Shown here: in pieces, positions 3,359 through 15,401 of the stretch | Layout: each line of letters begins with the position of its first letter | Numbering within the stretch: position 1 is the stretch's first letter | Origin: Candidatus Micrarchaeum sp. | GTDB lineage: Archaea > SpSt-1190 > DYHY01 | DNA: 64,000 nucleotides | NCBI GenBank assembly: GCA_020723935.1 | Contig: DYHY01000004.1 | Location: forward strand, 10,429-74,428 | Reading direction: 5' to 3' | The notes under the pieces: generated by a model | What the model was told of the DNA's origin: nothing | What the model saw: only the letters and a program-made list of their open reading frames with translations | Databases searched by the model: none | Program-made: the position numbers and the translations under genes

Positions 3359-4537
3359 TTAAGCCTTCTTCAGCGCGGCCCTCAAATCTTCAAGCAGGTC
3401 TTCCTTCGTCTCGATCCCGACGGAGAGCCTGACGAGGCCCGGCTCGACTGCTATCTGCGAGCCCGCGGTCGACGCGTGCGTCATCGCGAGCGGCACCTCG
3501 ATTAGGGACTCCACTCCCCCAAGGGACTCTGCGAGCGGGAAGAGCCGTGTGCCCTCCGCGAGCCTCCTGGCGGCCCGTGCCCCGCCCTTCATCACGACGG
3601 AGACCATCCCGCCGCCGTTCCTCATCTGCCGCTCCGCGAGGGAGTGCTGCGGATGGGACGGGAGCCCGGGGTAGAGGACGCGGGAGACCTTTGGATGGCC
3701 TTCGAGGAGCTCGGCGATTGCGAGCGCGTTCTCGGCATGCCGCTCCATCCTGACCGCGAGCGTCTTCGTCCCGCGCAGGATGAGGAAGCAGTCCATCGGG
3801 CCCGGGACCGCGCCGATGGCGTTCTGCAGGAACTTCAGGCGGGAATACATCTTCTCGTCGTTTAGGAGGAGCGCGCCCCCAACGACGTCCGAGTGGCCAC
3901 CCAGGTATTTCGTCGTCGAATGGACGACGATGTCCGCCCCCAAGGAAAGGGGCCGCTGCAGGTAGGGCGTCGCGAAGGTGCTGTCGACTGCGACCTGCGG
4001 CCTCGCCCGGGACTTGCGGGCCAGATCCGATATCTCGCGTACGTCGCAGAGCGCCATGCGGGGGTTGGTCGGCGTCTCGAGCCAGACTAACTTCGTGTTC
4101 GGCAGGATGGCTTGCGCGACCGCTCCGGAATCCGATCCGTCGACATATGTGAAAGAGAGCCCGTACTGGCGCAGGACGCGCTCGAAGAGCCGGTAGGTGC
4201 CGCCGTAGACGTCGTTGCACGCGACCACGTGGCCTTCGGGTCCTACCGTGCGGAGGACCGTGTCTATCGCCGCCATCCCGGAGGAGAACGCGAGGCTGTG
4301 GCGCGCGCCCTCGAGCGCCGCGAGGTTCTTCTGAAGAGCCGTCCGCGTCGGGTTGTCCGTGCGCGAATAGTCGTATCCCTTGTGCTTCCCTATTCTTTCT
4401 TGGGCGTAGGTGGAAGTCAGGTAGACCGGCGTCATCACGGCGCCTGTCGACGGGTCGGGCGGCTGGCCCGCCCTGACTGCGAGAGTCTCGAATCCCTGTT
4501 CCTTCCCTTTCAGAATGCCCTTGTTCACGTAGGTCAT
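3359..4537 (-). CDS. Cys/Met metabolism PLP enzyme (cystathionine gamma-synthase/lyase family)
   Basis: This full-length 392-aa member of the fold-type I PLP family makes or cleaves cystathionine-like thioethers in the cytosol. Visible signatures are YDYSRTDNPTR near the N-terminus, AFSSGMAAI, the lysine that forms the PLP aldimine in HSTTKYLGGHSD, and the C-terminal ESLIEVPLAMTHAS. Sequence alone does not separate gamma-synthase, gamma-lyase, beta-lyase and methionine gamma-lyase. It is coupled to ccdA upstream by an ATGA overlap (4534-4537), which links sulfur amino acid metabolism, perhaps H2S or persulfide supply, to the thiol/copper island. That link is inference. No truncation is seen. 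Confidence 0.9.
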   Translation of the reverse strand: MTYVNKGILKGKEQGFETLAVRAGQPPDPSTGAVMTPVYLTSTYAQERIGKHKGYDYSRTDNPTRTALQKNLAALEGARHSLAFSSGMAAIDTVLRTVGPEGHVVACNDVYGGTYRLFERVLRQYGLSFTYVDGSDSGAVAQAILPNTKLVWLETPTNPRMALCDVREISDLARKSRARPQVAVDSTFATPYLQRPLSLGADIVVHSTTKYLGGHSDVVGGALLLNDEKMYSRLKFLQNAIGAVPGPMDCFLILRGTKTLAVRMERHAENALAIAELLEGHPKVSRVLYPGLPSHPQHSLAERQMRNGGGMVSVVMKGGARAARRLAEGTRLFPLAESLGGVESLIEVPLAMTHASTAGSQIAVEPGLVRLSVGIETKEDLLEDLRAALKKA

Positions 4538-5607
4538 GTCGTTCCCCTTCCAAGCGTCTTGCTCTTTTTCTTCTTTTTCTTCTTCTTCTTCTTCTTCTCC
4601 CGCTCTTGCTCCGCGCCCCTGTTGCCGCGGAAACGCAGGACATGGGCCGCCAAAACTATCACGAGCAGGAGGAGGGCGCCCCCTAGCACCTTAGGATAGG
4701 GCCCGGAGGAAGAGGAGAGCGCCCTGCCCTGCACCGAATAGAAGTACTGCTTGAGGTGGAGGAAATCCCAGGTGTTGACGACGGAAGTCCCCCTGAATAC
4801 GACAAACGACAGGCCGATGAGCGCGAGGAACGCGCCCGACACCAGGTTCGTCGTGTGCAGCAGCAGGTCCTTCCCGAACAGGCGGACGCGCACCTCTTTT
4901 CCCCTGATAAGCGGGCTCTTCGCGAGGCCTGTGGAATCGTAGAAGACAGACAGGATGAAGAGCGGGGCGAAGATGCCCAGGGAATACGCGCCCATAAGGA
5001 GGCTAGCGTAGAGGACGTTCCCGAGGAGCGCCGCGACGGAGAGAATCCCGCTCAGTATCGGCCCGACGCAGGCGGTCCAGCCCAGGGCGAAAAGGGTGCC
5101 GGAGACGAAGACCCCCGCGACGCCGTCGCCGCCGGGAGCCGGGGCGGTTCTCGGCCGGATGAAGGAGGAGAATCCCTTGCCGAGGGCGGTCATGATTCCC
5201 ATCGCCATCAGGACGAGCCCCGCCACGAGGACGAGCTCCGGCCTCTGGAGCTTCAGGAGCGATTGCTCGCCGACGAATCCGGCGACCGCGCCGAACGCCA
5301 TGAAAACCACCGCGACCCCTAGCGAGAACGCGAGGGTCATCTTCGTCACTTCCGTTTTGCCTCCCGGCCGGAAGGTGTAAGAGAAGTACGCGGGAAGGAG
5401 CGGGAGGACGCAGGGAGAGAGGAGTGTGAGGGCGCCGGCAAAGAACGCGATGAGGAAGGAGATCTTCGCCTGGAAGTCCCTGGCATAGCCCTGGTTATAG
5501 TCCTTTATCTTCTGGAGGGCCGGCGGGAGAGCCGATGCGTCCGCCGCGAGGGCGGGCGCCAGGAGGACGAGCGCCAGCAGCGCCCGGCCCAGATCCATCC
5601 TATCCAT
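4534..5607 (-). CDS. ccdA: CcdA/DsbD-type thiol-disulfide transporter with N-terminal signal
   Basis: CcdA proteins pass reducing equivalents from cytosolic thioredoxin across the membrane. The sequence shows a signal-like helix (8-22), then a CcdA core with the two catalytic Cys in LSPCVLPLLPAY (Cys66) and GWTACVGPILSG (Cys180), about eight TM helices in all, and a Lys-rich tail of some 13 lysines encoded by an AAG repeat. It is longer than minimal CcdA, with an extra TM near 308-326. Neighbours fit as partners: the CuA cupredoxin four bases upstream and the thioredoxin-repeat protein beyond it could receive electrons outside. Start chosen at ATG 5607; MDL at 5598 is possible. Confidence 0.88.
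   Translation of the reverse strand: MDRMDLGRALLALVLLAPALAADASALPPALQKIKDYNQGYARDFQAKISFLIAFFAGALTLLSPCVLPLLPAYFSYTFRPGGKTEVTKMTLAFSLGVAVVFMAFGAVAGFVGEQSLLKLQRPELVLVAGLVLMAMGIMTALGKGFSSFIRPRTAPAPGGDGVAGVFVSGTLFALGWTACVGPILSGILSVAALLGNVLYASLLMGAYSLGIFAPLFILSVFYDSTGLAKSPLIRGKEVRVRLFGKDLLLHTTNLVSGAFLALIGLSFVVFRGTSVVNTWDFLHLKQYFYSVQGRALSSSSGPYPKVLGGALLLLVIVLAAHVLRFRGNRGAEQEREKKKKKKKKKKKSKTLGRGTT
4563..4599. repeat. CTT/AAG microsatellite
   Basis: An interrupted run of CTT triplets (AAG on the coding strand) encodes the poly-lysine tail of CcdA. Such triplet tracts can change length without breaking the frame. Confidence 0.8.
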
Positions 5608-5611
5608 CCTA

Positions 5612-6196
5612 TCAGTTCACCGCCAAGGTTCCCCTCATCAAGCTGTGCCCGGAGCCGCAGGGGCGGTTGCAGAAGAATGCGAAACGCCCCTGCCTGTCCG
5701 CGGTGAACTCGACGACGACCGGCGCGTCCCCGGGGGAGAAGGACTGCGTCGCAACCCCATAGTCGGGAAGGGTGGGGCCGTGCGTCCCCGACGTGCTTGT
5801 TAGAACGAGCCTAACGCGGTCTCCCTGGCTCACGGTTGTGGTCGACGAGTTCCAGCCGAAGGAGTATGCCTCGACCTTTATCTCCTTCATGGGCGCCTGG
5901 CCCGCCGTCGAGGAGGTGGGCGAGCTGGAGGATGAAGAGGAGGGGGATGAAGAGGAGAGGGATGAAGAGGAAGGGGATGAAGAGGAGGGGGATGAAGAGC
6001 CCTGCGAGCTTGATGTCGAACTGGATGGACTTCCTGAGCCAGCCGAAGGCATCCCCGCGTCCTGCGCTGGCCCCGTCACGCATCCCGCGACCAGGACCGC
6101 CGCCGCCAGCAGAACGGCCGCCACAACCGCAAAGGAGGCGGCCGTCTCGGGCATAGCCTTCCCGATGTTTCCCCTGAATCCCGATGCGTATCCCAT
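5612..6196 (-). CDS. CuA-type cupredoxin lipoprotein
   Basis: A 194-aa exported copper protein. Residues 15-40 form a signal peptide ending in a lipobox-like LVAGC, so it is probably lipid-anchored outside. A Ser/Pro linker (about 50-95, SSSSP repeats) leads to a cupredoxin fold. The C-terminal CNRPCGSGHSLM is the CuA ligand set C-x3-C-x3-H-x2-M of cytochrome oxidase subunit II and N2O reductase, and HGPTLPDY supplies the upstream His. No heme-copper oxidase subunit I is in the window, so it is more likely a copper carrier or redox relay than a respiratory subunit. ATG 6196 follows GAGGATGAAAGG; ATG 6154 is a shorter option. Confidence 0.85.
   Translation of the reverse strand: MGYASGFRGNIGKAMPETAASFAVVAAVLLAAAVLVAGCVTGPAQDAGMPSAGSGSPSSSTSSSQGSSSPSSSSPSSSSLSSSSPSSSSSSSPTSSTAGQAPMKEIKVEAYSFGWNSSTTTVSQGDRVRLVLTSTSGTHGPTLPDYGVATQSFSPGDAPVVVEFTADRQGRFAFFCNRPCGSGHSLMRGTLAVN
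5931..5999. repeat. 15-bp tandem repeat coding SSSSP
   Basis: Four near-identical 15-bp units (GATGAAGAGGAGGGG on the plus strand) plus a partial one encode the Ser-rich linker of the cupredoxin. Because 15 is a multiple of three, copy-number change would only lengthen or shorten the linker. Confidence 0.85.
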
Positions 6197-6220: not shown

Positions 6221-7205
6221 TTATCTCTTTCCCGCCGTCCCGTTCGGAACCACGACCGAGCCGTCGGACAGGTTCCTATACGGCAGGCTGAATATCTCGA
6301 CCGTCTGGAAGACGTACGTCCCGTCCCGCTCGACCGTCCCAACGTACTTCCAAGAGCCGTTCAGCGCCGGATACGCATCCACGTCGCCGTTCAGGATCGC
6401 CGTAGGGACGAGGAGTATCCCGTAGCGCGAGAGAAGCTCCTTCCCCCTCAGCCGAGAATATGTCGACGGATTTCTCGGCTTGCACGGCCGCCCCGACCTT
6501 GGCCAAGACCTTCTTGTGTATGGGCCCGGGATCGTAGCAGGACGCGCACGAGGCGTCGCGGACTATCGTGAGGTTGACGTACCCGACGGCCCGCCCGAGG
6601 GAAGCGTCGTAGTAAGGCGGAAGGGGTTTCTCGGCCACGTAGGCGGAACCGTCGGCTGAGAGGGGGGCCGTGCTGAAGATTCCGGGAAGGATGCCCTCGT
6701 ACGCCGAAAGCTCCCCTGAGAGGACGACAGCGGGGAATTTCGAGAGGGAATACTCGAGCGCGAGCGAGCGTCCTTTGGGGGAAGACAGGTTCACCTGGCT
6801 GATGCTTCCCAAGCCCACCCCAGCTAGGCGCAGCTGGCTTAGGAACGGAAGGGAGCCCGCGCAGGACAGGGCATAGATTACGGAAACGTTCACTATTCCT
6901 GCGACCGACCCGCTAGAGACGTCGAAGTAGAAGGGGTCTGGAGAGGAAAACACGATTGCGTCGCCAGAAAGCCTTCCGCCGGGAACCGCTTGCAGGGATT
7001 TCGCCTTCCCTATCTCGCCCGTCACGATCACCGCCGGAAGACGCGTTATCCCGTACCTGGAGATTAGGGGAGCAACCAGGGAGGAGCCGAAATCCAGGTC
7101 GTCTTGCGATGCCACCCGCACTCCGGCGGACTTGCGTATGGAATCTGCCAGGGCCGCGGGCGATGAGCACCTGCCGCAGTCGGCCTTGACTACTATGGTA
7201 GTCAT
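6221..7205 (-). pseudogene. triple thioredoxin-like repeat protein, frameshifted near its end
   Basis: Three similar units each end in a thioredoxin-like cis-Pro segment: ITRLPAVIVTGE, LSKFPAVVLSGE and ILLVPTAILNGD. Units one and three carry Cys pairs, CGRC and CASC; unit two keeps one Cys (YALSCAG). The frame from ATG 7205 loses sense after FSAEG; removing one base of the five-C run at 6443-6447 restores KELLSRYGILLVPTA through to TAA at 6221, giving about 327 aa. There is no signal peptide in this frame, but the preceding ORF is a TM anchor, and PLPADVSMTTIVV reads as if the two were one protein split near 7223-7226. A secreted disulfide exchanger fed by CcdA is the likely role (inference). 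Confidence 0.65.
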
Positions 7206-7524: not shown

Positions 7525-7761
7525 CTAACAGCCACCCACCTGCTGGGGAAGACTCGCAAGGCTCTTGGGAACCGAGCCTCCCGACGCCGCGGCGATGCCT
7601 CCGCTGTTGCTGCCTGCGGCCTCGGACGCTGCGAAGAGCTCCCCGAGGGAAACCTTCCCGTCCGAGACCTTCGTCCTAAGCTCGTTCAGCTGGAACGTCT
7701 GCGCCGCGGAGACTACCACGAACACCGCGAGAATCGCCGCGAGTATCTTCGTCTGGTCCAT
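7525..7761 (-). CDS. small secreted/anchored protein with C-terminal SLPQQVGGC
   Basis: This 78-aa protein of unknown function has an N-terminal TM or uncleaved signal helix (ILAAILAVFVVVSAAQTF), a Ser/Gly-rich middle and a C-terminus ending LASLPQQVGGC. The last nine residues match the end of the next protein upstream (SLPSQVGGC) in all but one position, and the N-terminal helices are also alike, so this looks like a short paralogue without the central Cys domain. The start is fixed by a strong ribosome site (AAGGAGGTG) 11 bases before ATG 7761. The pair probably forms one transcript reading from the divergent promoter at 8651. Confidence 0.7.
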   Translation of the reverse strand: MDQTKILAAILAVFVVVSAAQTFQLNELRTKVSDGKVSLGELFAASEAAGSNSGGIAAASGGSVPKSLASLPQQVGGC

Positions 7762-7808: not shown

Positions 7809-8621
7809 TTAACACCCGCCGACCTGGCTCGGGAGGCTCGCGGCGCCCGGCCCCGCGTCCCCGCCCGCCACATTGAGACCCAAGGTAACCATGTCCTTGG
7901 GGAAGAACAGGGTCTTCCACTTCATCGCCTCGTAGAGTATCTGCCCGTCGGAGTAGTTCGGCCTGTTCGCCGAGAGCCAGAGGGCCACGGAGAGCATCGC
8001 CGGGTTGTGCTGGCAGCCGCAGAGCGAGTTGCCGTTGGAGTCAGCTCCGGTCGGCCCTATCCCGCAACAGTACTCGCAGGAAATGCCGACCGGCTTGGTA
8101 GCGAAGCCTATGAACCTCTGGAACGCCTCAGGGTTGTTCTTCTTTACGTCGTCCTTGAGGCTCGGATAGGATTTCGCGAGGAGGTCGAGCGACTTTATCG
8201 GGTCGTCGAAGCTCACTCCCATCTCGGTGCCGTACTCGGGGGTGCCCGTCGGGAACATCGCCGCCATCGCCCCATCGGCCGTCTTCATCTTGTCGAGGGG
8301 GAAGACCGCGGCGATCGTGTCGGCCGTGGATTTTATCTTCGAGACGTCAACCTTGGAGAGGTCAGCTCCGTCGGAGCTCCCGGCCTGGAGGACGCTCGAG
8401 AGAAACCCTATCGAGGGCCCTTTGGCCCCGCCGCTGCCGTAGAGGGCGCCGGATATCGCGAATATCTGGGCCTGGTTGACTGCGAGGAGTATCGCCGCTA
8501 TGACAATGAGCGCTATCACCGGGGCGCCCAGCCTCATCGCGCCGGATTCCCTCTCTGCCGCCCCCTTCTCGGGAGCTGCCTTGGCCGCAGTAGCTTGCGT
8601 AGCATGATGCCTTTCCGCCAT
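7809..8621 (-). CDS. secreted Cys-rich protein (PCYCGC-like) with C-terminal SLPSQVGGC
   Basis: The 270-aa protein has a cytosolic N-terminus with His, one TM helix (about 31-53, VIALIVIAAILLAVNQAQ), and a large outside domain. The domain holds SCEYCCGIGPTG then LCGCQHNPAM, six Cys and a His in about 30 residues, similar in spirit to the PCYCGC lipoprotein motif (comparison from memory). It ends GAASLPSQVGGC, the tail shared with the next gene. The Cys cluster and context of CopA and cupredoxins suggest copper binding or storage. Its promoter has a TATA box at 8651-8658 and the 21-bp element 11 bases upstream of it, so the regulator encoded divergently at 8685 probably controls it. Confidence 0.75.
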   Translation of the reverse strand: MAERHHATQATAAKAAPEKGAAERESGAMRLGAPVIALIVIAAILLAVNQAQIFAISGALYGSGGAKGPSIGFLSSVLQAGSSDGADLSKVDVSKIKSTADTIAAVFPLDKMKTADGAMAAMFPTGTPEYGTEMGVSFDDPIKSLDLLAKSYPSLKDDVKKNNPEAFQRFIGFATKPVGISCEYCCGIGPTGADSNGNSLCGCQHNPAMLSVALWLSANRPNYSDGQILYEAMKWKTLFFPKDMVTLGLNVAGGDAGPGAASLPSQVGGC

Positions 8622-8650
8622 TTTCGGTCCGGTCGAGAACGCTGCCCCTA

Positions 8651-8658
8651 TATTTAAA
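8651..8658 (-). promoter_or_regulatory. TATA box of the divergent promoter region
   Basis: TATTTAAA on the plus strand reads TTTAAATA toward the gene starting at 8621. A near-symmetric A/T block of this kind can also serve the plus-strand gene starting at 8685, about 30 bases away. Confidence 0.6.
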
Positions 8659-8669
8659 AGGGGGGAAAT

Positions 8670-8690
8670 AACCGTGAAAAAACAGTGAAA
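8670..8690 (-). promoter_or_regulatory. putative operator, copy 1
   Basis: Read on the minus strand this 21-bp element is TTTCACTGTTT then TTTCACGGTT, a direct repeat with an 11-bp period, followed by a third TTTC one period on. An identical copy lies at 10459-10479. It sits 11 bases before the TATA box of the 8621 gene and overlaps the GTG start of the regulator gene (8685), so the regulator could control its neighbour and itself. Confidence 0.65.
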
Positions 8691-10433
8691 GAAGGGGAAA
8701 ACCAGCCTGCCGCGCAGCAGCGGGGCGTTTTCGCGAGCCAGAGGTCGGTCCTGGCGCTCTCCTTGGCGCTCCTCCTGATGGGCGCGGTGGTCCTGGTGAA
8801 CTTCCTGTCCTTCTCCAAGGTCGGGGGGGTTATGGAAAGCCAGCTCCTGGACCGCCAGCAGATAGCGGCCGACTACGCGGCGTCAAGGATCGAGGAGCAC
8901 ATCCATCAGGTCAGTATGGAGGTGACGACGCTTTCCAGCTTCCCCGCGCTGAAGAACCTCGACCTGAGCCAGTGCAGCGGGGACGTGAAAATAATACACC
9001 CCAGCCTCGAGGGCAAGACGAAGGTACTCCTGCGGGTTGACGCTCTCGGGAACATCGTGGAATGCTCGTCCCCGAATTACAAGGGATACGTTGGCTTGAA
9101 CGTCAGGAACAAGGACTATTTCAAAGTCCCGGCCGAGACGGGGGCTTCCTATGTCTCGGGCCTCGCGAGGGACGGGAGCGACTACAATGTCTTCGTCTCC
9201 GCCCCCATCTTCGAGGGGGGGTCTGGAGGAACATACCCCAATAACGGCGAGTTCGGGGGAATACTCCTAAGCATCGTGGGCCTCCAGGACCTCTACGACC
9301 TCTACATACACCCAATAGGGCCGATGGGCAGGGACCTCTTCGTCCTCGCGAGCGTGGATGCGGGCGACACCGTGATGAAAAGCCAGGGCGCCCCTGACCT
9401 GGGCGGCCTCGGCAAGGTGCACGAGATAAGGGATTATGCCGGGACGGGCAGGACCATAGCCGTCTCCTCCGACCTCTCCCTCGGGAGCGAGAAGTTTCGC
9501 CTCTTCATCCTCACACCCCTCGCCAACGCAGACAAGGAGATACGGGACGTCAGAGCGGGCTACCTGTTCTCCCTGTTCTTGGCCGTTTCGGCCATCCTGG
9601 GCGCCCTCCTTCTCGCGGCTTCGGCGTACCTGTCGCGCGAGAGGATAAGGACGCAGCTCGCGCGGACCACAGAGACGCTCGAGAGCCTCGGGATCACGGT
9701 CGAGACGGAACGGAGCGGATATTCTCCTACCGACATCGTCCTCGAGCCCCACAAGGTCTACCTCCTTAAGGAGGACGGGGAGACGAGCCCCCACGACCTC
9801 TTCATTGGGATGCTCTCACATGGCTTCGCGGGCCTCGGCATAGTGAGGGACGACCCCAGGGAGCTGCGGAAGAAGTACAGCCTCAAGAAGACTTCGTTCA
9901 TATGGCTCTCGGAGGCGGGCGGGGGCCGGGGCGTCCCGGCCGAGACCAAGATCGAGACGCTCCTCGGCCTCGCCAGGGAGTTTGTGGAGAGGAGCGAGAA
10001 GAGCGTCATATTGATAGACCGGCTCGACTACCTGATATTCGAGAACGGCTTCGAGCGGGTCCTCAAGGCGGTGTACGCCCTCCGCGACCTCGTCGCGAGG
10101 AGGAAGTGCGTCGTGATAATCTCGGCCAACCCCGCGGTCATACCCAAGGAGCAGATGGAGGCGTTCAGCGCGGAGACGATCGACCTCTTCGGCGGCAGGG
10201 CCGGGGCCGGCCTCTCCAAGGACGAGGCCGAGCTGCTCTCGTTCGTGAACGAGGGGAACGTCGCGAGCAGGCTCGTCTCCTACACGGACGTGACGGAGCA
10301 GCTTGGGATAACGAAGCCCACCGCCCGAGCCAAGATCCGGCGCCTGCAGGACGCGGGCTTCCTCTCCGTCGAGAAGGTCGGGCGGGTGAAGGCCGTGCGG
10401 ATAACGTCCCTGGGCAGGAAAATCATTTCCTGA
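8685..10433 (+). CDS. membrane one-component regulator: Cache sensor, DUF835, winged helix
   Basis: The 582-aa protein reads as TM helix (about 18-42), a 250-residue outside Cache-like sensor, a second TM (about 296-320), a short linker, a DUF835 domain (about 345-500; VYLLKEDG, GLGIVRDDPRELRKKY, FIWLSE, VILIDRLDYLIFENGFERV) and a C-terminal winged helix (about 510-582; DVTEQLGITKPTARAKIRRL). DUF835 is an archaeal signalling domain of unknown chemistry. A sensor outside and a DNA-binding domain inside on one chain imply membrane-tethered transcription control. Identical 21-bp elements at both ends of the gene are its likely sites. GTG 8685 lies about 30 bases after the TATA block. The ligand is unknown; Cu or a thiol is a guess from context. 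Confidence 0.85.
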   Translation: MKEGENQPAAQQRGVFASQRSVLALSLALLLMGAVVLVNFLSFSKVGGVMESQLLDRQQIAADYAASRIEEHIHQVSMEVTTLSSFPALKNLDLSQCSGDVKIIHPSLEGKTKVLLRVDALGNIVECSSPNYKGYVGLNVRNKDYFKVPAETGASYVSGLARDGSDYNVFVSAPIFEGGSGGTYPNNGEFGGILLSIVGLQDLYDLYIHPIGPMGRDLFVLASVDAGDTVMKSQGAPDLGGLGKVHEIRDYAGTGRTIAVSSDLSLGSEKFRLFILTPLANADKEIRDVRAGYLFSLFLAVSAILGALLLAASAYLSRERIRTQLARTTETLESLGITVETERSGYSPTDIVLEPHKVYLLKEDGETSPHDLFIGMLSHGFAGLGIVRDDPRELRKKYSLKKTSFIWLSEAGGGRGVPAETKIETLLGLAREFVERSEKSVILIDRLDYLIFENGFERVLKAVYALRDLVARRKCVVIISANPAVIPKEQMEAFSAETIDLFGGRAGAGLSKDEAELLSFVNEGNVASRLVSYTDVTEQLGITKPTARAKIRRLQDAGFLSVEKVGRVKAVRITSLGRKIIS

Positions 10434-10458
10434 CATTCTCGGCGGTTTGCCGGCGGCT

Positions 10459-10479
10459 TTTCACTGTTTTTTCACGGTT
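10459..10479 (+). promoter_or_regulatory. putative operator, copy 2
   Basis: Exact copy of the element at 8670-8690, here on the plus strand: TTTCACTGTTT then TTTCACGGTT, again followed by TTTC after another 11 bases. It ends 12 bases before the TATA box at 10492 and points toward the 10521 gene, the same orientation and nearly the same distance as copy 1 to its minus-strand promoter. Its T-runs may also help end the regulator transcript. Confidence 0.65.
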
Positions 10480-10491
10480 GTTTCGCCTTGC

Positions 10492-10499
10492 TTTAATAT
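10492..10499 (+). promoter_or_regulatory. TATA box of the Met-rich/copA operon
   Basis: TTTAATAT lies 22-29 bases before ATG 10521, which fits a leaderless transcript starting at that ATG. Confidence 0.6.
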
Positions 10500-10520: not shown

Positions 10521-11120
10521 ATGGAAAACGAAAGCAAGGCCGCAATCCCGGTGCTCGCCGTTGCCGCGCTCGCGGTATTATTGGCGCTCTTCGCGCTCCC
10601 CCTCGCGGGGGCGTATGCGTACGAGGGGAACTTCACCAAGGAGGCTCTCGCGATAATAGCGGCGAATGTGTCGTGCGGCTCGATAACCGAAGCACAGCTC
10701 GAGACCCTGGGCGAATACTACAAGGAGCTCATGCATCCGGGCGCGGCCCACGAGGCTATGGACCAGATGATGGGTGGCGAGGGGTCTGAGTCCCTGCGGC
10801 AGGCGCACGTCGGAATGGGCCGGGCGTTCCACTGCGGCGCTTCGGGAAGCTTCAGGGGGATGATGGGCCTCGGCTACAGGATGGGCATGATGGGCGGTCC
10901 TTATTACGGGGGATACACCGGCTACGGCGGGGGGATGATGGGCGCGTCCTATGCTACTCCTTGGTATCTGGTGCTCGTCAACGTCCTCTACTTGCTCCTC
11001 CTCCTGGGTGCGGTGATTTTGGTCTTCATCTGGGTCGTGCGGTCCTGGAGGGCGCTCAACAGCGGCGCCCGGCAGGAAGCCGGGAGCGGCCCGGTAAGGA
11101 AGCCTGCGAGGCGGAAATAA
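10521..11120 (+). CDS. Met-rich secreted/membrane protein, probable copper binder
   Basis: The 199-aa protein has a signal or TM helix (9-32), a domain with two Cys (VSCGSITEAQL and AFHCGAS) and repeated Met (MDQMMGGEGS), a Gly/Met-rich loop (FRGMMGLGYRMGMMGG, GGGMMGAS), a second TM (about 147-175) and a basic tail. Clustered Met with Cys and His outside the membrane is typical of Cu(I) handling proteins. It is first in an operon with the next two genes and copA, with gaps of 1, 2 and 36 bases. ATG 10521 is likely the transcript start. The exact family is not recognised. Confidence 0.75.
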   Translation: MENESKAAIPVLAVAALAVLLALFALPLAGAYAYEGNFTKEALAIIAANVSCGSITEAQLETLGEYYKELMHPGAAHEAMDQMMGGEGSESLRQAHVGMGRAFHCGASGSFRGMMGLGYRMGMMGGPYYGGYTGYGGGMMGASYATPWYLVLVNVLYLLLLLGAVILVFIWVVRSWRALNSGARQEAGSGPVRKPARRK

Positions 11121-11121
11121 G

Positions 11122-11787
11122 TTGGGCGGAACGGACGGAAAGGCGGCGGACGCCGTCTTCTACGCAATACTCATCGTTGCGGCTGCCGGGGCGACGGGAA
11201 TAGCCATCCTGTCGGCATTACAGCCTCCCTCCCCGGCAGCCCCAACTTCATTCGGCCCGCGCGCAACGAAGCTCACCTCATTCGACATATCGCTCGCGCA
11301 GGGGATGATGGACAGAAACGGCGACGGGAAATGCGATTCCATGGGATCGTCGGTCGAGGGCGAGATCCTCGCGAACAGGCTCCAGTGCATGGGCGACCCC
11401 AACGCGACGATAGGGCAGCTCGGCTCCTCGCACCACCACGCGGACTTCAAGGTCTACGTAAACGGGCTGCCGACGGATTTCAACGACCCGAAATACTTCG
11501 TCAGGAGCTCGTTCGCCCATGTGGAGCCCGACGAGGTTTTGGGGGCGACCGGGACCGTCTTGCACCTCCACGCGACGGGAGTCCCGTTATGGGTCTTCTT
11601 TAAGAGTGTGGGGATGGACCTGGACGGGGCGAAGATCCTCGTGAACGGCGCGGAGAGTGGTCTGCTAGGGGACTATGCGCCGTCAAACGGCGACAGGATA
11701 CTGGTGTCTTACGGAAACGCTACGCAAGGGGAACTGAAGAGAGAAATGGACAGCGTCACTGACTACGCGGCGATGGGGAGGGTCTGA
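11122..11787 (+). CDS. membrane-anchored protein with HHH and HLH metal motifs
   Basis: This 221-aa protein starts at TTG 11122 after the stop of the previous gene, with AGGCGGA as ribosome site. It has one TM anchor (about 10-32), a low-complexity Pro/Ala stretch, a D-x-N-x-D-G type loop (RNGDGKCDS), one Cys further on, then SSHHHADFKVYVNG, RSSFAHVE and TVLHLHATG, followed by a soluble C-terminus. The HHHADFKVYVNG signature occurs in other archaeal secreted proteins of unknown role, as I recall. The three His clusters are good candidates for a metal site. It sits between the Met-rich protein and the cupredoxin membrane protein, so a copper task outside the cell is likely. Confidence 0.65.
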   Translation: MGGTDGKAADAVFYAILIVAAAGATGIAILSALQPPSPAAPTSFGPRATKLTSFDISLAQGMMDRNGDGKCDSMGSSVEGEILANRLQCMGDPNATIGQLGSSHHHADFKVYVNGLPTDFNDPKYFVRSSFAHVEPDEVLGATGTVLHLHATGVPLWVFFKSVGMDLDGAKILVNGAESGLLGDYAPSNGDRILVSYGNATQGELKREMDSVTDYAAMGRV

Positions 11788-11789
11788 AA

Positions 11790-12731
11790 ATGACTTCCAC
11801 TGGCGCCTACATTTTCTCGTACCTGCTCTATATGGCGGTGCTCTCGGGCGCCGCCCTCTACGTCTGGAAGTACAGGAAGGGCCTCGACGAGATGTACGGC
11901 ATGATGATGGGAATGACGTTTGGCACGGTCGCAGGTCTTGCGACCGGCCTCTTCTACGCCCTCCCGAGCGGCGACTTTGTCGGCGGGGCGATTGTCGGGA
12001 CCGTGGCCGGGCTCCTCTTCGGGATACTGCTAGGGGTGATCGGCGGGCCCCTCGGGATAATGGAGGGCGTTATGGGCGCCTTCATGGGGGGCTTCATGGG
12101 CTCGATGACGGGGCAGATGGCGCGCCCGTTCCCGCTGGGCGCGTTCTCTCCGGTCTTCGCGGCGATATTCCTCGCGATGATGGCGGGGATCACCTATGCC
12201 GCGGAAACGGGCAAGACCTGCTGCGCTCCCGCGGGGGGTAAGCCGGAGGCGCCCGAGAGGCCGAAGCTGGTGAACCCGTCGGGCAAGTTCGTCGCCACGT
12301 GGACAGTCGTCGCCGCAATCCTCCTCTTCGCGAGCTTCGCGATAGACCTCTCGCCGTACTCCGCACAGGGCGCCCAGTCGACTGGCACGCAGAGCACGGC
12401 TCTTCCGGCGTCGCTTCGGGCGCTCACGGAGGAGCAGCAGACCCAGGCAGTCCAAAAGGACGGCTACCAGGAAGCGTCATTTAGGGTGACCGCGGGGAGG
12501 TACACGCCTAACGTCATAGTCGTCAAGGCTGGGACGCCGCTTAGGCTGAACATCGCAGCAGACAGGAACGCCGGATGCGGGACTGACATCGTCTTCCCGG
12601 ATCTCAGGGTGCGCTCGCTCATCCCCCCGGGGACGTCCAAGACGGTCGAGGTGGGGACCCCGTCCGCGGGGAACCATTCGTTCTCCTGCTCCATGGGCAT
12701 GTTCCGCGGAAAAATCGTCGCGGTCGGTTAG
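11790..12731 (+). CDS. Met/Gly-rich membrane protein with C-terminal cupredoxin
   Basis: The 313-aa product starts with about five TM helices (1-165) that include MYGMMMGMTFG and a Gly/Met helix (GVMGAFMGGFMGSMTGQM), a chemistry suited to passing Cu(I). A CCAP loop follows, another TM (about 172-190), then a cupredoxin-like domain (about 225-313) with AGCGTDIVFPDL and HSFSCSMGMFRGKIV, where His, Cys and Met form a type-1-like site. This matches archaeal membrane-plus-cupredoxin proteins found beside copper ATPases. It overlaps nothing and begins two bases after the previous stop. A copper transfer protein feeding or receiving from CopA is the best reading. Confidence 0.8.
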   Translation: MTSTGAYIFSYLLYMAVLSGAALYVWKYRKGLDEMYGMMMGMTFGTVAGLATGLFYALPSGDFVGGAIVGTVAGLLFGILLGVIGGPLGIMEGVMGAFMGGFMGSMTGQMARPFPLGAFSPVFAAIFLAMMAGITYAAETGKTCCAPAGGKPEAPERPKLVNPSGKFVATWTVVAAILLFASFAIDLSPYSAQGAQSTGTQSTALPASLRALTEEQQTQAVQKDGYQEASFRVTAGRYTPNVIVVKAGTPLRLNIAADRNAGCGTDIVFPDLRVRSLIPPGTSKTVEVGTPSAGNHSFSCSMGMFRGKIVAVG

Positions 12732-12767
12732 TCAGTTAAAAAGAGGTAAAGGGGGAGAAGAGTGAAA

Positions 12768-15401
12768 ATGGCGATGGAAAAGGATCCTATATGCGGCATG
12801 AATGTCGACCCGCGGACCGCGAGGTTCAAGGGCGAGAAGAGTGGGAGGACATACTACTTCTGCAGCAAGTCCTGCATGGACGCTTTCCTGGGGGGCGGCG
12901 AGGAGGGCGTGGGGGAAGAGGGGCGCCATCGCGGCGACGGGGAACCGGAATCCGGGAAGGAAGAAGGACTCCCGCAAAAAGGCCCGCCGAAGAGGATGTT
13001 CAGGATAAAGGGCATGCACTGCGCTAGCTGCGCGATAACGATAGAGAACAACCTCAAGAAGCTCCCAGACACCAGGGCGAGCGTCAACTACGCCTCCGAG
13101 AAGGCCTATGTCGAGGGGCCCGCGACCGACGCGCGGGTCATGGCGCGCGTGAAGGAGGCTGGCTACGAGGCGATCCCGGCTTCCGACAGGCCGGGGGAGA
13201 TGGTCCTTGAGATATCCGGGATGGATTCCATGCACTGCGTCGGGATCGTCGAGAGCTCGCTCAAGCGCGTGCACGGGGTCTCCGAAGTCAAGGTCAACCT
13301 CGCCACGGGCAAGGCGAGGGTCGCGTTCGACCCGGCAAGGGCCCATGCAAGCGACCTCGTCAAGGCTGTGAAAGCCGTCGGCTACGGCGCGATGGCGTCT
13401 AGCGAGAAGCGCGACGAGCACGCCGAGGAGCAGCGGGCGGAGATACGCTCCTACCTCTCCCGGATAGCGGTATCTTTCTTCTTCGCAATCCCTCTCCTCT
13501 ACCTCTCGATGGGGATGCTCGTGGGCCTCCCGGTGCCGGAGTTCAAACCGTTCGAGCTGGGGCTCCTGGAGCTGGCGCTCGCTACGCCTGTGATAGTCGC
13601 GGGCCGGGGCTTCTACACGCGCGGCTTCAAGTCGCTCGCGAACCTCACGCCCAACATGGATTCTCTCGTCGCCATAGGGACGGGGGCTGCATACGTCTAC
13701 AGCGTCTACGGCGTCGTCTCAGCGTACTACGGCGCGTCGCCGGAATACTATTTCGAGGTATCCGCGCTCCTGATAGCTTTCATACTCCTCGGGAAATACC
13801 TGGAATCGGCCGCAAAGGGCAGGACGTCGGAAGCGATAAAGAAGCTAATCGGCCGGCAGGCCAAGACGGCGACCGTCGTCCATCACGGAGTCGAGACCGA
13901 GATCCCAATAGAGGAAGTGGCGATCGGCGACATCGTCATCGTCAAGCCCGGCCAGAAGATACCTGTGGACGGGACCGTCACCGAAGGGAGGTCCACCGTC
14001 GACGAGAGCATGATAACGGGCGAGAGCGTCCCCGTCGGGAAGGGCCCGGGGGACGCCGTGATAGGTGCGACGATGAATAAGACCGGCGCCTTCAGGTTCA
14101 AGGCAGAGAAGATAGGCGCCGACACGATGCTCGCGCAGATAGTGCGGATGGTTGAGGAGGCTCAGGGATCCAAGGCGCCGATACAGGCGCTCGCCGACAG
14201 GGTCTCGGCCTATTTCGTCCCGGCGGTCGTCGGAATCGCCCTCGTATCTTTCCTCGCGTGGCTCTTCCTCGCGGGCAAGCCGTTCCCGTTCGCCCTCACG
14301 ATATTCATATCCGTCCTGATAATCGCCTGTCCCTGCGCCCTGGGCCTCGCGACGCCCACGGCCGTGATGATGGGGACGGAGAAGGGGGCCGAGAACGGGA
14401 TACTCATCAAGACGGCCGAGGCCCTGCAGATGGCCGGGAGCGTCGGAACGGTCGTCTTCGACAAGACCGGGACTCTCACAAAGGGCGAGCCTTCCGTGCC
14501 GGACGTCGCAACGGTCGCAGGCGGCGAGGAGAACGACGCCCTCGACTACGCGGCGGCCATAGAGAAGAACTCCGAGCATCCCCTGGGCGAAGCGATAGTG
14601 AGGTTCGCCGCCGAGAAGGGCATAAGGCCGGAGGCCGTGAACGAGTTCAGCTCGATCACGGGGAAGGGCATCAAGGCGTTCTACAGGAACAAGCTAGTGC
14701 ACCTGGGCAACAGGGCGCTCATGGATTCGGAGGGGATCCCCTACCGCGCGTACGAGGACAAGACGTCCGGGCTCGAGGGCGAGGGGAAGACAGTCATGTT
14801 CCTCGCGGTCGACAGGAAGGTGATCTCGCTCATCGCGGTCGCGGACACCCTCAAGGAGCATTCGAAGGAGGCCGTCGCCGAGCTCGGGAGGCTCGGGATA
14901 GAGACGGCCATGATAACGGGCGACAACGAGCGGACGGCCAAGGCGATAGCCTCGCAGGTCGGGATAAAGACCGTCCTCGCGCAGGTCCTTCCCGGCGAGA
15001 AGGCCGAGAAGGTGAAGAGCCTCCAGGAGGGGGGGAAGCGCAAGGTCGCGATGGTCGGGGACGGGATAAACGACGCGCCCGCGCTCACCCAGGCAGACGT
15101 GGGGATAGCGATAGGCTCAGGGACCGACGTCGCGATCGAGTCAGGGGGGATAGTCCTCGTCAAGGACGACCTGCGCGACGTCGTGAAGGCGATACGCCTG
15201 AGCAAGTACACGATGGGGAAGATCAGGCAGAACCTCTTCTGGGCGTTCTTCTACAACCTGATCGGGATTCCGGTGGCCGCGGGCGCGCTCTTCCCGTTCA
15301 CGGGCGGGCTGCTCAACCCCGTGGTAGCCGGCGCCGCCATGGCTTTCAGCAGCGTGAGCGTTGTCACGAACACGCTGACTATGAAGGGGTTCAAGTTGTA
15401 G
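12768..15401 (+). CDS. copA: Cu(I)-exporting P1B-type ATPase with N-terminal YHS domain
   Basis: CopA pumps Cu(I) out of the cytosol using ATP. In order: YHS domain ([19 protein letters not shown]; 1-45), a Gly/Glu linker, HMA domain 1 with [11 protein letters not shown] domain 2 with GMDSMHC, which has lost the first Cys of CxxC, eight TM helices with CPC in ACPCALGL, actuator [30 protein letters not shown], and the YN plus M-x2-SS residues of the last helices that mark Cu(I). ATG 12768 has GGGGGAG 11 bases upstream; GTG 12762 is the alternative. It ends the operon begun at 10521, and AGTGAAAA at its start resembles a half operator. Confidence 0.95.

Follow-up and report, generated by a model that had tools for sequence, protein, structure and literature searches.

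We found that, in an uncultured small-genome archaeon (Candidatus Micrarchaeum sp., assembly GCA_020723935.1), two copies of a short DNA element lying on either side of a gene for a predicted membrane-spanning sensor are very probably the binding sites through which this sensor controls two neighboring operons for copper and thiol handling. This inference rests on the recurrence of the same gene-element pair in 14 further genomes and on the near absence of the element where the gene is absent, with perfect matches in only 1 of 22 genomes lacking the regulator. The preliminary description of this locus had noted two identical 21-bp elements that bracket the regulator and point at two metal/thiol promoters, and had proposed a self-contained copper or thiol response system; our analysis confirms the observation and largely supports the interpretation, although binding, the sign of regulation, and the signal are only inferred. 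The features of the window, that is, the whole 64,000-nucleotide stretch that we analyzed (contig DYHY01000004.1, positions 10,429 to 74,428), are collected in Table 1.

Table 1. Coordinates of the element copies, predicted promoter elements, regulator, and predicted target genes in the window.
Feature	Position	Strand	Description	Support
Element copy 1	8665..8690	-	TTTCACTGTTT TTTCACGGTTA TTTC, three 11-bp units; the 21-mer is 8670-8690; a possible fourth unit TTTTCCCCTTC lies at 8691-8701	Exact sequence; 36.9-37.2 bits with a matrix from homologues only
Element copy 2	10459..10484	+	TTTCACTGTTT TTTCACGGTTG TTTC; the 21-mer is 10459-10479	Exact sequence; 33.8-34.3 bits with a matrix from homologues only
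Predicted TATA box of the VGGC operon	8651..8658	-	TTTAAATA, 6 nt after unit 3; could also serve the regulator in the other direction	Sequence and conserved spacing in homologous loci
Predicted TATA box of the Met-rich/CopA operon	10492..10499	+	TTTAATAT, 7 nt after unit 3	Sequence and conserved spacing in homologous loci
Transmembrane regulator	8685..10433	+	582 aa: TM, dCache sensor with Cys97 and Cys127, TM, DUF835 (KaiC/FlaH-like), MarR-like winged helix	Profile matches, hydrophobic segments, and predicted folds
Target, Cys-rich protein	7809..8621	-	Membrane anchored, ending in QVGGC (family unnamed)	Homologues in the same place in regulator loci
Target, small protein	7525..7761	-	Same QVGGC ending	Homologues with the same ending
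Target, thioredoxin-like protein	6276..7205	-	Start uncertain	Weak Pfam match below its cutoff; homologues in clusters
Target, cupredoxin-like protein	5612..6196	-		Similar to cupredoxin-like proteins of the clusters
Target, membrane thiol channel	4534..5607	-	CcdA/DsbD type	Pfam DsbD_TM, E 8e-18
Target, Met-rich membrane protein	10521..11120	+		Sequence; homologues in VGGC clusters
Target, protein of unknown family	11122..11787	+	In operon	No Pfam or NCBIfam match
Target, membrane protein	11790..12731	+	C-terminal cupredoxin domain	Pfam Cupredoxin_1, E 1e-14
Target, P-type ATPase	12762..15401	+	CopA type, with YHS and two HMA domains	Pfam

Both 21-mers are exact, and no other match with up to 3 mismatches exists in the window (0 in 100 shuffles) or in the whole genome, where even a looser version with two free positions and up to 3 mismatches finds only these two places in 1,138,792 bases. 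With the third TTTC, the match between the copies extends to 25 of 26 bases, so that the element consists of three direct units, 11 bp apart. The TATA-like boxes follow 11-12 bases after the 21-mer, and the two start codons lie about 29-37 nt beyond the start of the boxes, so the transcripts would be leaderless or nearly so. Copy 1 covers the regulator's GTG, and the TATA box upstream of the VGGC gene sits in a near-palindrome at 8640-8668 (CCCCTATATTTAAAAGGGG) that may serve the VGGC gene and the regulator in both directions. In contrast, the preliminary suggestion that AGTGAAAA at the copA start (12761) may be a half-site is not supported, since nothing there scores above background against the matrix of the element. 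A 19-bit matrix hit at 4374-4399 stands far below the two sites, and two candidates elsewhere in the genome with 1 mismatch to two TTTCAC units (contig C20, positions 38688 and 43598) lack the rest of the element and are treated as chance; the first lies 14 nt before a TATA-like box of a pilin-like ORF. No tRNA or Rfam element explains the repeats.

To place the regulator in a broader context, we searched for homologous loci. Searches with the regulator itself gave no related loci and, among 101 relatives, only the DUF835-winged-helix half attached to other sensors; homologues came to light only by following the VGGC protein, which led to two Woesearchaeota loci carrying full-length regulator homologues (45% and 36% identity) with the same repeat in their intergenic regions. 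A search of 371 genomes of that phylum with the three regulators gave 14 homologues in all (13 whole and one split over two contigs), a separate group of DUF835-winged-helix proteins, and one divergent relative (25% identity, genome G702), which has neither the element near it nor the target operons. Among ten genomes of the window's own phylum, only the window's genome has the full-length regulator. The regulator tree is mostly unresolved, so transfer between phyla is suggested only by this patchy distribution.

All 14 homologous loci carry one or two copies of the element, and alignment of the promoters gives TTTCMCTATTT-TTTCACTAAYA-TTTC-N6/8-TTTAAATA, with the TATA box 6-8 nt after unit 3. 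Across 27 sites, C4, C6, C15, C17 and T1, T2, T12, T13, T23, T24 never vary, and the total information is about 34 bits. Strikingly, a matrix trained only on the other genomes ranks the two window copies first (37.2 and 34.3 bits), compared to at most 14.4 bits in 60 simulated 64-kb windows. When each locus was left out in turn, the true sites scored 22-39 bits, whereas the next scores in the same loci were mostly under 16 and at most 18.8, apart from a 27.6-bit hit shifted by one unit beside window copy 1, which is the possible fourth unit.

As controls, we examined 15 clusters that carry the VGGC gene without this regulator and found no site above 18.3 bits, with 12 of them having none above 9, although one of these contigs (L081) begins at the gene, so that its promoter is not covered. 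Pattern searches of 37 whole genomes found perfect matches to a degenerate pattern in 14 of 15 regulator genomes and in 1 of 22 others (Fisher p = 3.5e-8), the latter being a single unexplained match in genome G266. In the regulator genomes, every perfect match lies on the regulator's contig, within about 6 kb of it; for the split gene (genome G463), there is one on each of the two contigs. Since regulator and element were partly found together, their association is not fully independent of the search path, and the leave-one-out scores and the control genomes are the stronger evidence.

Two copies are present in 12 loci, and in 11 of these they lie on opposite sides of the regulator and point outward; in genome G404 both lie on one side and face each other, and in genome G424 only one copy was found. 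The element between the regulator and its divergent neighbor usually has a second TATA for the regulator hard against unit 1, so the bound protein would sit between two TATA boxes, whereas the copy downstream of the regulator mostly lacks this second TATA. In the window, the second TATA is absent and the element lies over the regulator's own predicted start. One side usually controls the VGGC/thioredoxin/CcdA operon, or a DUF1573-containing operon that in genomes G248 and G484 leads into it, and the other side controls CopA (G602), DUF411 (G401), YHS proteins (G248, G508), a DsbA-like thioredoxin (G484, G422), or uncharacterized small membrane proteins. Copper and thiol genes are found in the flanking operons of most of these genomes.

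The regulator, the only DUF835 protein of its genome, matches DUF835 (PF05763) well above the curated cutoff (90.4 bits against 33.1, E 1e-25), as do all 14 members, and has two hydrophobic segments at residues 14-32 and 294-312. The Cache match is weak in the window protein (E 0.01) but reaches E 1e-8 in the best homologue, with Pfam dCache_1 found in 6 of 14 members. The predicted structure (mean pLDDT 77) matches dCache sensors between the TM segments (sporulation kinase D, Z 16.1, rmsd 3.6, 198 residues), FlaH, a KaiC relative (Z 14.6, rmsd 2.9, 148 residues), and MepR, a MarR-type winged helix (Z 13.9, rmsd 1.8, 77 residues), although the low pTM (0.47) leaves the domain placement uncertain. 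The winged helix (about residues 504-582), which matches Pfam MarR/DUF6293_C types in homologues, contains the region ITKPTTRxKI, which is nearly invariant, as expected if all bind one element. Interestingly, every one of 14 proteins has exactly two cysteines in the extracytoplasmic domain, aligned at Cys97 and Cys127 in 13 of 14; the fourteenth (locus L162) keeps Cys127 and has another cysteine 16 residues before it.

Taken together, we consider it very likely that the gene encodes a self-contained transmembrane one-component regulator, with its dCache domain outside and its DUF835 domain and winged helix inside the cell. The winged helices would bind, side by side on one face of the DNA, direct units (TTTCMC, 11 bp apart) placed just upstream of the BRE/TATA of two divergent promoters. 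This is the position described for archaeal activators such as EarA of Methanococcus maripaludis and Ptr2 of Methanocaldococcus jannaschii (PMC5512572), and CopR of Pyrococcus furiosus shows the same logic, with its motif between divergent promoters, copA raised, and copR lowered (PMC7830388). We therefore favor, with some reservation, activation of both operons by helping TBP/TFB load. Since copy 1 overlaps the regulator's own predicted start in the window, and abuts the regulator's own TATA in most homologues, binding should also damp the regulator's synthesis. The two outside cysteines, together with the thioredoxin, CcdA, CopA, and DUF411 targets, point to copper or thiol oxidation in the envelope as the signal, but this rests on gene content only and is about as likely as not. 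More tentatively, we speculate that these proteins form a new subfamily of archaeal membrane regulators in which a two-cysteine switch in the dCache domain senses copper or thiol oxidation directly, the KaiC-like domain relays or multimerizes, winged helices assemble on helically phased units to recruit TBP/TFB at both promoters, and the whole two-operon circuit is a portable unit spread between archaeal phyla.

It is possible, though less likely, that the same protein acts on the same operator as a repressor that leaves the DNA when copper or oxidized thiols are sensed. The position of copy 1 relative to the regulator's start and, in homologues, its TATA would fit this view, and CopR of Thermococcus onnurineus was reported as a repressor although its close relative in P. 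furiosus activates (PMC7830388). Moreover, in the VGGC cluster of a class-mate (genome G005, locus L041), a perfect 14-bp palindrome TGAAACTAGTTTCA (within L041:5480-5620, minus strand) lies just downstream of a TATA-like box, a typical repressor place; it is a plausible repressor operator for a small membrane winged-helix protein encoded there (L041:5592-6059, minus strand). Clusters without the dCache-DUF835 regulator often carry such a protein (similar genes in loci L084, L114, L115, L118, and L123-L126), sometimes divergent from the VGGC gene, a probable nonhomologous replacement of the regulator. However, at the two target promoters the units lie upstream of the TATA with fixed 6-8 nt spacing and never over the TATA or start.

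We consider it improbable that the element is the site of some other DNA-binding protein, or an extended core-promoter element, with the membrane regulator only a neighbor. Unit 1 read on the other strand (GGGAAA) does look like a BRE of the regulator's own promoter in homologues, but the downstream copies lack the second TATA, so a BRE role does not explain them, and perfect matches sit near this regulator and, apart from the one in G266, are absent from the genomes and homologous operons without it that were compared above. Finally, the inverted orientation and identical 21 bases in the window could recall the ends of a mobile element that carried the regulator gene. This reading is contradicted by the homologous loci, which keep element and TATA spacing while the distance between copies runs from about 1.8 to 6 kb and the enclosed genes differ, and by the arrangement in G404.

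Transmembrane transcription regulators such as CadC and ToxR, with the sensor outside and the DNA-binding domain inside on one chain, are widespread in bacteria and archaea (PMC10269533), in a survey that does not mention DUF835 in its main text. The present protein does not fit the CadC/ToxR family, which appears to carry an N-terminal OmpR-type winged helix and one TM segment, since its winged helix is C-terminal and MarR-like, with two TM segments and a KaiC-like domain between. CopR of P. furiosus is an archaeal copper regulator encoded divergently from copA, with a motif directly upstream of the BRE, but it is a soluble, Lrp-like octamer with an N-terminal HTH, a cytoplasmic TRASH metal domain, and a semi-palindromic motif; the regulator here has a different domain order, and the Pfam scans of 14 members gave no TRASH match. 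EarA and Ptr2 bind several repeated sites directly upstream of the BRE/TATA, yet EarA controls archaellum genes, Ptr2 belongs to the Lrp family, and neither has a dCache-DUF835 chain or this element. DUF835, known as an inactive KaiC domain (iKaiC), also follows a sensor or receiver domain in archaeal response regulators of the REC-DUF835 type and related proteins (PMC5847659), but those have a receiver domain and no membrane sensor, and no operator was found reported for them. As far as our searches of open-licence papers show, in which we found no description of this domain order, this operator, or the VGGC proteins, this would be the first operator assigned to any DUF835-type regulator, and a transmembrane regulator with a defined, conserved operator in DPANN archaea, where almost nothing is known of gene control and no genetics exists.

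The association also gives a functional context, envelope copper and thiol handling, to two uncharacterized protein families that end in VGGC. These two different proteins, one large and Cys rich and one small, travel together in many archaeal clusters with thioredoxin-like, CcdA, and DUF411 genes (homologues in loci L041, L114-L126, and L162-L174), and their shared C-terminal ending may be a processing, lipid-attachment, or thiol-exchange signal. The VGGC protein gave no PDB match by Foldseek, which does not show a new fold. Another group of membrane DUF835-winged-helix regulators (L177:7768-10180, L178:2352-4518, and L180:7967-10172) lies divergent from small membrane genes, and the one in L177 is a pacearchaeosortase by NCBIfam (E 2e-33), so DUF835-winged-helix may be a general output module of archaeal membrane regulators.
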